Origin: Candidatus Rokuibacteriota bacterium
GTDB taxonomy: Bacteria; Methylomirabilota; Methylomirabilia; Rokubacteriales; CSP1-6
Reading direction: 5' to 3'
NCBI GenBank assembly: GCA_016188005.1
Contig: JACPIQ010000112.1
Span: 1-47,332, forward strand
DNA length: 47,332 nt
In this document: in pieces, positions 2,780 to 32,224 of the stretch
Layout: every line of letters begins with the position of its first letter
Position numbering within the stretch: position 1 is the first letter of the stretch
Notes under the pieces: model-generated
Seen by the model: the letters and a program-made list of their open reading frames with translations, nothing else
Told to the model about the DNA's origin: nothing
Database searches by the model: none
Position numbers and translations under genes: made by a program

Positions 2780-2869
2780 TGGCGGAGGGGGAGGGATTCG
2801 AACCCCCGGCCCCTTGCGGGGCTCCGGTTTTCAAGACCGGCGCCTTCAACCGGACTCGGCCACCCCTCC
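2780..2869 (-). tRNA. tRNA-Ser(UGA)
   Basis: About 90 nt with a long variable arm (GCCCCGCAAGGGGC) and encoded CCA (2782-2780). The acceptor is GGAGGGG/CCCCTCC. The loop CTTGAAA has TGA at 2833-2831, reading UCA and, by wobble, UCG. It begins only 11 bp after the serS stop codon on the same strand, so it is probably cotranscribed with its own synthetase. Confidence 0.96.
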
Positions 2870-20317: not shown

Positions 20318-21844
20318 ATGATCAAGGCGGAAGAGATCAGCGAGATCATCAAGCGCCAGCTCCAGGGGTACGAGGCCGAGGTCGACCTCAAGGAAGCCGG
20401 GCGCGTGATCGAGGTGGGCGACGGAATCGCGCGGATCTACGGCCTCGAGAAGGCGCTCGCGGGCGAGCTCCTGGAATTCCCCGGCGGCGTCTACGGGTTG
20501 GTGCTGAACCTCGAATCCGACAATGTCGGCGCCGTCCTGCTGGGTTCGGACACGCTGATCAAGGAAGGCGATCCCGTGACCCGGACCAAGCGCATTGCGC
20601 AGGTGCCGGTCGGGGAGGCCCTGATCGGCCGTGTCGTCAACGCGCTGGGCCAGCCCGTGGACGGCAAGGGGCCCATCGACTCCAAGGAGTTCCGCTCCAT
20701 CGAGCGCTACGCCCCCGGCGTGGTGGACCGGCGGTCGGTGAGGGAGCCGTTGCAGACCGGCCTCAAGGCCATCGACGCCATGATCCCCATCGGCCGCGGC
20801 CAGCGCGAGCTCATCATCGGCGACCGTCAGACCGGCAAGACGGCCATCGGCGTCGACACGATCATCAACCAGAAGGGGCAGGGGGTCTATTGCTTCTACG
20901 TGGCCATCGGGCAGAAGCGCTCCACGGTGGCCCAGGTGGTGAAGGTCCTCGAGGACACGGGCGCGATGGCCTATACCACCGTGATCATCGCCTCGGCCTC
21001 GGAGTCGGCGCCGCTGCAGTACCTGGCGCCCTATAGCGGCTGCGCCATGGGTGAGTACTTCCGCGACTCGGGGCGCCACGCGCTGTGCATCTACGACGAC
21101 CTGTCGAAGCATGCCCAGGCGTATCGTCAGCTGTCGCTGCTCCTGCGCCGGCCGCCGGGGCGCGAGGCGTATCCGGGCGACGTCTTCTACCTGCATTCGC
21201 GGCTGCTCGAGCGCGCCGCCAAGCTCAACGACGAGCTGGGCGGGGGCTCGCTCACGGCGCTGCCCATCATCGAGACACAGCTGGGCGACGTGGCGGCCTA
21301 TATTCCGACCAACGTCATCTCCATCACCGACGGCCAGATCTACCTCGAGTCGGACCTCTTCTTCTCGGGCATCCGGCCGGCGGTGAACGTGGGTCTGTCG
21401 GTGTCGCGCGTGGGTGGCTCGGCCCAGGTCAAGGCCATGCGGCAGATCGCCGGCAAGCTCAGGCTGGACCTGGCCCAGTACCGCGAGCTTGCGGCCTTCG
21501 CGCAATTCGGCTCGGACCTCGACAAGGCGACGCAGCTGCAGCTCGCGCGCGGGCAGCGGATGGTGGAGGTGCTCAAGCAGGGCCAGTACGTGCCGCTGCC
21601 CCTCGAGCGCCAGATCGCCAGCATCTTCGCGGGCACCCAGGGGATGCTCGATGATCTTCCCGTGGACCAGGTCCGCCCCTTCGAGGCCTCCCTCTACCCG
21701 CTCCTCGAGCGCAAGCACGCCCAGCTCCTGGCCGACCTCGCCAACAAGAAGGAGCTCACCGACGAGATCCGCGAGCGTCTGACCCGGGCCATCGACGAAG
21801 CCAAGGCGGAGTTCGTCGCCGCGCGGGGCATCAAGGCCGCCTGA
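20318..21844 (+). CDS. atpA: F-type ATP synthase F1 subunit alpha
   Basis: 508 aa. P-loop GDRQTGKT at residues 168-175, with the alpha signature [17 protein letters not shown] near 350. It is the non-catalytic nucleotide-binding subunit of the alpha3beta3 hexamer. It lies in the middle of the operon with 15 bp before atpG. Confidence 0.97.
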
Positions 21845-29657: not shown

Positions 29658-30407
29658 ATGACGAGCGCGCCCGAGCTGTCCATCGTCGTGCCCGTGTACA
29701 ACGAGGAGGACAACCTCCCGCTCCTGTGGCCCGAGCTCCGCGAGGTCATGGCCGGTACCGACCTGCGCTACGAGGTCGTGTTCGTGGACGACGGCAGCCA
29801 GGACCGGAGCGCCGAGATCGTCCGCGACTTCCGCGAGCAGGACCCGCGCGTGCGGCTCGTCAGGCTCAAGGCCAATGCAGGGGAGACGGCCGCCACGGAC
29901 GCGGGCCTCAGGACCGCGCGCGGCCGCTGGGTGGTCGTGATGGACGCCGATCTCCAGAATGACCCGCACGACATCCCGGCGATGCTCGGCCATCTCGAGC
30001 ACTGGGATGCCGTGACGGGCTGGCGCGTGAATCGCGGGGCCGGCGACTCCCTCGTGCGGCGCCTCTCCTCGCGCATCGCCAACCGGGTGCGCAACGCGCT
30101 CAGCGACGAGACGATCCAGGACAGCGGTTGCACCTTCCGCGCCTTCCGGCGCGAGTGCCTCGCCGACCTCGTGCTCTACAAGGGCTTCCACCGCTTCATC
30201 CCCACGCTCCTCAAGATGCGGGGCTTCCGCGTGCTCGAGATCCCGGTCAACCACCGTCCGCGCCGCTTCGGCCAGTCCAAGTACGGCATCGGCAATCGCG
30301 CTTTCCGCGCCTTCTACGACCTCCTGGTGGTGCGCTGGATGAAGGACCGGCTCCTGCGCTACGAGGTCGCCGAGGATCTCGCGGGCGATGACAGCGCGCC
30401 CCGATGA
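29658..30407 (+). CDS. Family 2 glycosyltransferase (dolichol-phosphate-mannose synthase-like)
   Basis: 249 aa. N-terminal nucleotide-sugar domain: LSIVVPVYNEEDNLP, FVDDGSQDRS and the metal-binding DADLQNDP near residue 97. The FRAFRRECL and NHRPRRFGQSKYG segments match polyprenyl-phosphate glycosyltransferases. It lacks C-terminal membrane helices, unlike the ArnC/GtrB type. It probably transfers a sugar to a lipid phosphate at the inner face of the membrane. Its stop codon overlaps the ATG of a 46-codon ORF (ATGA). Confidence 0.88.
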   Translation: MTSAPELSIVVPVYNEEDNLPLLWPELREVMAGTDLRYEVVFVDDGSQDRSAEIVRDFREQDPRVRLVRLKANAGETAATDAGLRTARGRWVVVMDADLQNDPHDIPAMLGHLEHWDAVTGWRVNRGAGDSLVRRLSSRIANRVRNALSDETIQDSGCTFRAFRRECLADLVLYKGFHRFIPTLLKMRGFRVLEIPVNHRPRRFGQSKYGIGNRAFRAFYDLLVVRWMKDRLLRYEVAEDLAGDDSAPR

Positions 30408-30534
30408 GCCCCGCAGGGGCGAAGAGGCCTAACCGCCACGCGGTGTCCTCCACGTTCAGGCGAGCTGAGATGAGCCCCGCAGGGGCGAAGAGGCCCGGCC
30501 GCAACCCGACGTCCTCCACGTTACAGCGAGATCA
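30403..30534 (+). repeat. Tandem duplication, two 66-bp units
   Basis: Units 30403-30468 and 30469-30534. The first 27 bases of each (GATGAGCCCCGCAGGGGCGA and the following GAGGCC segment) are identical, and GTCCTCCACGTT recurs at 30445 and 30511. Each contains the mini-hairpin GCCCC-GCA-GGGGC. The first unit starts at the glycosyltransferase stop. The 66-bp length keeps the frame, so both units read as one short ORF. Confidence 0.9.
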
Positions 30535-30544
30535 AGAACGATGA
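30404..30544 (+). CDS. Possible 46-residue ORF made of two 22-residue repeats
   Basis: The ATG overlaps the glycosyltransferase stop (ATGA), and the TGA overlaps the ATG of the oxidoreductase (ATGA). It encodes MSPAGAKRPNRHAVSSTFRR followed by a second, diverged MSPAGAKRPGRN repeat, ending QRDQER. The product would be basic, with no predicted fold. The double overlap and intact frame through a diverged duplication hint at translation. A plain non-coding duplication of a mobile hairpin is the main alternative. Confidence 0.4.
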   Translation: MSPAGAKRPNRHAVSSTFRRAEMSPAGAKRPGRNPTSSTLQRDQER

Positions 30545-31515
30545 AGCTGCTCCTGGTCGGGCTGGGGCGCTGGGGCGAGAAGCACCTGCGCGTGCTCCAG
30601 GAGTTGGGCGTCGAGCTGTGGGTGGCGGACCTGTCCCCGGAGCGGCGGGCCTTCGCCGTCAGGGCCGGCGTGGACCCCGCGCGGGCGGTGGAGGACATCA
30701 GACGGGCGCTGCCCCACGTGGAGGCCGTGGACCTGGTCACGCCCGCCGACAGCCACGTCGCGTTGGCCCGGGCGTGTCTCGAGGCCGGGCGCCACTGCTT
30801 CGTCGAGAAGCCACTCACCCTGACCGTCGCCGAGGGGCGGGAGCTGGCGCGGGTCGTGCGCGCCACGGGGCGCGTCCTCCAGGTGGGACACATCTTCCGC
30901 TTCCACCCTGTCACCGCGGTGTTGCAGGCGGAACTCGCCGGCGGCGCCGTCGGTCCCGTGCGCTACGCGACCGGGCGCTTCGCCGGCTTCAAGCGGCCGC
31001 GCACGGATGTCGGCGTCACGCAGACCGATGCCATCCACTACTTCGACCTCTTCGCCCATCTGCTGGGGCGGCGGCCCACCGCGGTGACGGCCACGCTCTC
31101 CGACCACCTCGGGCGGGGGCTGGACGACTGCTCCTTCGCCACGGTCGAGTACGCCGGCGTCCCGGCGTTCGTCGAGGCGGGCTACTTCGCCCCAGGGACA
31201 TTTCGCGACTGCGTCATCGTCGGCGCGCGGGCAACGCTCAGCGCGGATTTCGGCTCGTCGGAGGTCACCGTCCACGAGAACCGCCACATCCAGGGCCCCG
31301 GCGGCTGGCAGGCGCCCGAGGGCCCGCGCCGGGCCGTCAAGGCCGCAGGGCCCGAGCCGCTGCGCCGCGAGCTCGAGCTCTTCCTGGACGCCGTGGCGCG
31401 CGGCGGGCCGCCGGCGGTGGACGTCGAGGCCGGGCTTGCGGCGCTCGAGACAGTGGAAGCGGCCCGCCTTTCCTCACGCCTTGGCCGCCGCGTGGCGCTC
31501 GCCGAGCTCGGCTAG
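30541..31515 (+). CDS. Gfo/Idh/MocA family oxidoreductase
   Basis: 324 aa. Rossmann NAD(P)-binding start VGLGRWGEKH (residues 6-15), catalytic-site EKPL near residue 95 and the C-terminal sheet domain (YATGRFAGFKRPRTDVGVTQ). Members oxidise or reduce sugars or sugar nucleotides. Next to a lipid-linked glycosyltransferase it may prepare a nucleotide sugar for a surface glycan; this is inferred from context. Confidence 0.87.
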   Translation: MKLLLVGLGRWGEKHLRVLQELGVELWVADLSPERRAFAVRAGVDPARAVEDIRRALPHVEAVDLVTPADSHVALARACLEAGRHCFVEKPLTLTVAEGRELARVVRATGRVLQVGHIFRFHPVTAVLQAELAGGAVGPVRYATGRFAGFKRPRTDVGVTQTDAIHYFDLFAHLLGRRPTAVTATLSDHLGRGLDDCSFATVEYAGVPAFVEAGYFAPGTFRDCVIVGARATLSADFGSSEVTVHENRHIQGPGGWQAPEGPRRAVKAAGPEPLRRELELFLDAVARGGPPAVDVEAGLAALETVEAARLSSRLGRRVALAELG

Positions 31516-32158: not shown

Positions 32159-32224
32159 GGGGGTCAGGTCTTGCATTCCGACATCGGCAAGGGGCTACGT
32201 GGCGGTTTTCAAGACCTGACCCCC
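32159..32224. repeat. REP/MITE-like inverted repeat between DedA and MFS genes
   Basis: Perfect 15-bp arms GGGGGTCAGGTCTTG (32159-32173) and CAAGACCTGACCCCC (32210-32224) around 36 bp. The GGGGTCAGGTCTTG arm recalls ends of repeats moved by IS200-like or REP-associated tyrosine transposases. The right arm is translated as the last residues (GGQVLK) of the MFS transporter, so the element appears to have inserted over that gene's original end. Confidence 0.75.

Follow-up and report, generated by a model that had tools for sequence, protein, structure and literature searches.

The locus and its immediate context

The window, by which we mean the whole analysed stretch of 47,332 nucleotides, contains a small open reading frame set between two co-directional genes (Table 1). 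The ATG of this mini-ORF overlaps the TGA of a glycosyltransferase gene, and its own TGA (30542-30544) overlaps the ATG of an oxidoreductase gene. An earlier sequence-only reading had reported the 46-codon frame, the ATGA overlaps at both of its ends and the 66-bp tandem units within it. The ORF coordinates confirm the frame and the overlaps, and the tandem structure was recovered as two 66-nt units (30394-30459 and 30460-30525) of 79% identity without gaps, with a TRF score of 191, the top one of 15 rows in the window. The family model R1, described below, matches the site twice, at 30404-30465 (85.6 bits) and at 30470-30531 (77.6 bits).

Table 1. Features of the mini-ORF site and other features of the window (positions are those of the window)
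Feature	Position	Strand	Description
Upstream gene	29658..30407	+	GT2 glycosyltransferase (PF00535), from ORF and Pfam; TGA inside the left ATGA
Mini-ORF	30404..30544	+	46-codon mini-cistron spanning both units, ATGA at each end; translation MSPAGAKRPNRHAVSSTFRRAEMSPAGAKRPGRNPTSSTLQRDQER
Repeat unit 1	30404..30469	+	ATGA (glycosyltransferase stop / mini-ORF start), hairpin, GAAGAGGCC core, looser 3' half
Hairpin of unit 1	30408-30420		GCCCC-GCA-GGGGC
Repeat unit 2	30470..30540	+	Anatomy of unit 1; stops just before the right-hand ATGA
Downstream gene	30541..31515	+	GFO/IDH/MocA oxidoreductase; ATG inside the right ATGA
Three tRNA genes	1495-1663 and 2783-2869	-	
Inverted repeat pair	32160-32223		GGGGTCAGGTCTTG-like repeats

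Searches with the mini-ORF against Pfam returned a sub-threshold match to DUF1388 alone (E 0.0026, 18 bits; cut-off 25.9), and this possible kinship was dropped as it led nowhere. At the gathering score, Rfam yielded the three tRNAs alone in the window and nothing credible at the mini-ORF site. Folding of the whole pair of window units was no better than that of shuffled sequences (z -0.50), and no Shine-Dalgarno-like 4-mer was found upstream of the oxidoreductase start. The window ORF is ordinary for the repeat family to which its units belong, and it is the family itself that is the interesting object.

A dispersed family of hairpin-bearing repeats

The sequence-only reading had suggested a search for the unit in the genome and its relatives. 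In its own genome, that of a Candidatus Rokubacteria member (G000), a first search gave 68 matching pieces at about 40 places, and a model built from 34 units recovered at least 101 units at E<=0.001 when 150 of the 9504 first-look candidates were scored, a number that places the window repeat far beyond chance. Under strict filters, with 56 candidates scored per genome, the repeat was present in 9 of 95 genomes of the phylum. It was dense only in genus g1, all three genomes of which carry at least 57-59 units each; G035 has 20, G022, G024, G025 and G026 have 4-11, and G038 has 2. In a pattern scan of genome contigs, most of the non-Rokubacteria matches among those listed look like chance single matches. 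Viral carriage was also considered and set aside, the six pattern matches in viral contigs being chance ones by eye and devoid of the hairpin.

The unit measures about 62-66 nt and is comprised of ATGA, a hairpin, the GAAGAGGCC core and about 35 looser nucleotides, commonly ending about 48 nt past the hairpin at another ATGA. Units occur singly or in tandem, in arrays of 1 to about 8. The core is almost invariant and the 3' half looser, with the proviso that GAAGAGGCC also served for detection and its near-invariance should be read accordingly; the 3' halves of units in genera g8, g12 and g13 are diverged. ATGA directly precedes the stem at the hairpin foot, with CAGA, GAGA or GAAA in inner units. 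The hairpins are 10, 12 or 13 nt long, rarely 11 or 14, and without selection on pairing a stem of at least 4 was present in 85/90, 40/43 and 25/26 units with 13-, 10- and 12-nt hairpins, respectively. Among 34 units with 13-nt hairpins, preselected for having a stem (hence the stem count repeated without that choice), 25 cells had changed on both sides of the stem as against 7.0 in shuffles, and sliding the stem partner abolished this paired-change signal. These 34 units were used in place of a 63-unit alignment, whose consensus fold contained zero pairs because MAFFT had misplaced hairpins of different length. No terminal inverted repeats were seen in the aligned units.

Sister species may differ at one and the same junction both in the letters of the hairpin and in unit number, as at L028, L076 and L089, with 1, 8 and 2 units respectively. 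Several individual arrays depart from the basic plan. L109, in G035, has a 105-nt unit variant with another 3' part, encoding a stretch rich in alanine, lysine and arginine, and the model also found an array of about six units on a G000 contig (C73:6590-6971). L017, L026, L031, L040 and L043 are composite: a truncated unit precedes a new one, and between the two lies an apparent copy of the last bases of the upstream gene, as though that junction had been copied as well. A resemblance by eye of CCGATGAG-stem-CGAAG to a hammerhead core was pursued and abandoned: inner units lose the left part, the 3' half pairs unsuitably and Rfam gives no match.

Placement at gene junctions

For the analysis of gene context, 114 clusters were found and 104 kept; one of those dropped is a match on the minus strand of the window, at position 20702, that is due to chance. 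Among the 104 kept rows L085 (minus strand) and L219 are probably false, some junctions (L026, L147) occupy two rows, and sister orthologs are counted apart. The array and junction counts leave out the C73 array and cover a part of the 85 G000 regions, loci and window junctions. Gene frames were assigned by a codon-usage score trained on six window ORFs, since choosing the frame by the longest ORF proved unreliable in this GC-rich DNA.

Most copies lie between genes. Across four genomes, 87 of the 104 arrays run in the sense of both neighbours, 7 are antisense to both and 10 are mixed. Where the upstream gene has the same sense (90 arrays), its stop is exactly the TGA of the element in 52, lies within the 70 nt before that TGA in 30, and falls beyond it in 8. 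A different arrangement is seen at L019, where two units (about 2126-2280) lie within a gene, close behind its start, and are read in a different frame; G055, a sister, is without them.

At the right-hand boundary, filled coupled arrays have ATGA in 38 of 41 cases, TTGA in 3 and GTGA in none, as against 25 ATGA, 23 GTGA and 4 TTGA among 52 ordinary overlaps. Because GTGA never occurs at this position in filled arrays and ordinary overlaps are mixed, the element either takes ATGA only or itself brings the ATG.

Empty sites in sister genomes

At the window site the same two genes meet in a plain ATGA overlap in the sisters G055 and G054, as well as in the more distant G035. Extending the comparison with G054 and G055 to 19 other G000 loci, 20 with the window, and reading the junctions by hand, we found at least one sister without the element at 13 loci; the other seven (L009, L013, L016, L018, L037, L039 and L040) had no empty sister or no informative match. 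Nine of the 13 empty sites are NTGA overlaps (the window, L020, L022, L027, L030, L033, L034, L035 and L041) and four are not (L015, L019, L031 and L043), compared with a background of 52/164 close co-directional pairs as delineated by a rough gene finder (p 0.006). At four loci (L020, L022, L034 and L041) the sister has GTGA and the filled site has ATGA at both ends. In filled elements generally, the ATGA at either end looks like a 4-nt duplication. Exact loss of the element in two sisters, in place of a gain, may be the explanation instead.

The same comparison bears on the origin of the window pair. Its two units share 82% identity over a span of 62 nt. A unit at L089 matches unit 1 at 90%, and units at L076 and L027 match unit 2 at 87%. 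Furthermore, the flanks of the window site are 94.6% and 91.5% identical to those of the empty sister G055, so that the divergence within the pair, about 18-21%, exceeds the 5.5-8.5% by which the flanks differ from the empty sister. Because the nearer matches of both window units are at other loci, duplication in place is disfavoured, and judging from these identities the pair most likely arrived already diverged, or by way of two insertions.

The open frame and the lack of Shine-Dalgarno motifs

In 94 arrays the frame of the downstream gene was compared with that of the element's ATG. It is coupled (relation 2) in 49, the same (relation 0) in 30 and neither (relation 1) in 15, a depletion of the last class (p 0.0003; 2/29 in single units) that has to be read with the caveat that family copies share their length by descent and are not independent. 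A chain of coupled frames reaches the frame of the gene in 58/94 arrays, whereas 100 shuffles averaged 29 and never exceeded 38; the rule that defines a chain is lenient, and a start in the third frame still yields 41/94. The coupled relation is retained in 13 of 19 arrays in genera g8, g12 and g13 despite their diverged 3' halves. In the majority of copies an open frame extends from the left ATGA either to a stop overlapping the start of the next gene or directly into that gene as an N-terminal tail.

An SD-like 4-mer accompanies the downstream start in 2/41 coupled arrays versus 29/74 other NTGA overlaps, and the empty window site in G055 has GGGGAGGAG ahead of the ATG. If the element parts the start from its Shine-Dalgarno motif in this way, ribosomes probably use the mini-ORF or a fusion.

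Fusions are represented by in-frame N-terminal tails at L010, L014, L018, L075, L078 and L105. At four of these, L010, L014, L078 and L105, the frame opened by the first ATG continues into the gene, and that ATG is the only start codon listed. At L018 the first other start is codon 108, in a stretch that we take to be typical of HemL. The tail of PyrE consists of four units in G000 and three in G055, and that of HemL of four units in G000, with G054 retaining one hairpin, still in frame. K/R-rich tails of roughly 40-90 residues were observed on an MBL/beta-CASP nuclease (L010, L075), PyrE (L014, L078), HemL (L018), an ABC ATPase (L012) and an M20 peptidase (L105).

The sequence-only reading had named frame-breaking indels between intact flanking genes as evidence against its proposals, and such cases do occur. 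The 12 g1 arrays with hairpins of 11, 12 or 14 nt are distributed over relations 0, 1 and 2 as 5, 4 and 3; seven of them have neither coupling nor fusion, with flanking genes intact, and in four the ATG stays at its usual distance of 48 nt, which breaks the frame. Among all last units of g1 arrays, 26/80 were classed as 'none' by a strict rule, although some of these belong to multi-unit arrays in which the frame closes beyond the limit that the rule sets. Because frame-breaking copies exist the ORF is not strictly required; across this collection of arrays, an open frame looks favoured.

Candidate mobilising enzymes

No Y1_Tnp gene was detected in G000. The Y1 genes of G054, G055, G035 and G024 had no repeat unit near them, in loci extending about 1.5 kb to either side as far as contig ends permitted. 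Another repeat, GGGGTCAGGTCTTGCAT, instead flanks the RAYT-like genes on both sides in G024 and G035, and was also seen on one side in G055. By hand sorting, RAYT-like genes are present in 5/9 element-bearing genomes as opposed to 2/48 other genomes of the bacterial family (p 0.0006). This association is the reason to consider mobilisation of the element by RAYT-type Y1 transposases of the same bacterial family, a proposal that we regard as unlikely: the RAYT type is absent from G000, G025, G026 and G054, the RAYT genes examined have the other repeat at their flanks, and the association tracks phylogeny, which alone could produce it.

A separate feature of the window, the inverted pair of repeats listed in Table 1, is of the same repeat that flanks the RAYT-like genes in G024 and G035. 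The pair therefore looks like a REPIN of that transposase; it lies between what are presumably a DedA-like gene and an MFS gene.

Interpretation and alternatives

Taken together, the repeat is probably a short mobile element, non-autonomous and akin to REPs and MITEs, that is at home in stop/start overlaps and whose open frame makes its insertions tolerable. We put the probability of this reading, which is based on comparison of sequences, at roughly 0.7. A putative enzyme acting in trans would recognise the hairpin with its ATGA foot and join the element at ATGA, much as HUH/Y1 enzymes act on the ends of IS200/IS605 elements and on REPs. Insertion at an overlap would leave both genes whole, and would move the downstream start away from the Shine-Dalgarno motif often present at ordinary overlaps. 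The downstream gene might then be reached by termination-reinitiation through the element's mini-ORF of 21-22 codons, or as a fusion, the open frame being what would make insertions tolerable and not a gene with a product of its own. A stronger version, to which we give somewhat less than even odds, is that the overlap of stop and start is the very target of the element, which also brings a translational relay with it: on entering an operon at ATGA it would provide the preceding gene with a stop and the following gene with a start, and would pass the ribosome on through a 21-22-codon mini-cistron or become an N-terminal tail of the next protein. Such elements would form a class of transposable repeats that is safe for operons.

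The most serious competitor is a DNA-level, REP-like element with an accidental open frame, in which the mobilising enzyme fixes the ends and the hairpin, hairpins of 10 and 13 nt merely happen to open the frame, survival at overlaps reflects the kept stop and start, and coupling is unneeded. We hold this to be possible but doubtful. It accords with four of the eight arrays whose last unit has a 12-nt hairpin and whose start was assigned, in which the 48 nt from core to ATG are kept and the frame is broken (offset 64; L016, L017, L088, L100), with a core that stays near-invariant while the 3' half diverges, and with the supply of stop codons to neighbouring genes by GTAG REPs, as far as the part of PMC3733652 used here describes it. 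It is harder to reconcile with the missing SD motifs, which demand another way to start the next gene, with the depletion of relation 1, and with the PyrE and HemL tails, which stay in frame in sisters with differing numbers of units. A regulatory RNA of the host, or an element of translational control, that had been spread over many operons because of its function would account for the transcript-sense placement and the covarying hairpin. We judge it improbable, given the lack of an Rfam match, the empty sister sites and the differences between sisters, the arrays ranging from 1 to about 8 units, the unrelated flanking genes, and a fold of the unit pair no better than that of shuffled sequences.

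The proposals of the sequence-only reading can be placed against this background. Birth of a small gene by in-place tandem duplication of the 66-bp unit draws on the single frame shared by the two units, but the family is dispersed, both units have nearer relatives at other loci and the pair is more diverged than the flanks, leaving this origin scarcely credible. Its suggestion of a mobile hairpin fared well, in view of the dispersed family, the empty sister sites and the covariation. The notion of a translational coupler with a duplicated unit survives in one half: a relay is supported for many copies by the frame relations (49, 30 and 15 of 94), the tails and the lack of SD motifs, and duplication in place is the half that finds no support at this site.

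Compact operons offer little room for insertions. If the preferred reading of a mobile element tolerated through its open frame is true, the family would illustrate how selfish DNA can multiply within operons and yet leave them intact, through a kept stop and start and a mostly open path for the ribosome. The dozens of sites that it occupies serve as natural experiments on the dependence of genes on translational coupling without a Shine-Dalgarno motif, and the family would account for numerous unannotated small ORFs and unusual N-terminal tails among Rokubacteria.

Comparison with known systems

The closest parallels are with REPs and the TnpA-REP/RAYT system, which have in common with the element a short hairpin carrying a tetranucleotide at its 5' foot, a high copy number, clustering in tandem and a position beside genes. 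In the portion of PMC3733652 cited, the ends of GTAG REPs often give the neighbouring gene its stop codon. The element differs in its foot, which is ATGA and not GT[AG]G, in its unit of about 62-66 nt with a conserved 3' part, and in its single orientation at stop/start junctions, where it supplies both stop and start, and in the open frame that crosses the unit. It also has no linked RAYT, G000 being without Y1_Tnp and the RAYT genes of its relatives lying beside the other repeat. The tetranucleotide at the hairpin foot and the fixed motif at the far end recall IS200/IS605 ends, and hairpins with yet another foot, CnGA, accompany class 3 Y1 genes, both as treated in the relevant part of PMC6006769. 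The supposed route of the ribosome past the element, termination-reinitiation, is described at ATGA overlaps in PMC6728339, which, in the part consulted, concerns ordinary gene pairs and not an interposed mobile repeat.

Elements that are accommodated by operons or by coding sequences form a further point of reference. We know of no stop/start overlap associated with the Chunjie element. This MITE of Geobacter uraniireducens, 178-235 bp long with terminal inverted repeats and direct repeats, sits in an operon without disturbing it, according to the excerpted account in PMC10969869. The same account covers Rickettsia palindromic elements (RPE) and other ORF-compatible MITEs, which are dispersed palindromes read in frame within protein genes. 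The element resembles RPEs as a dispersed palindromic repeat read in frame, but in contrast to RPEs, which are about 150 bp long and lie inside genes, it occupies gene junctions, is read as tails or mini-cistrons, and varies in its number of units.
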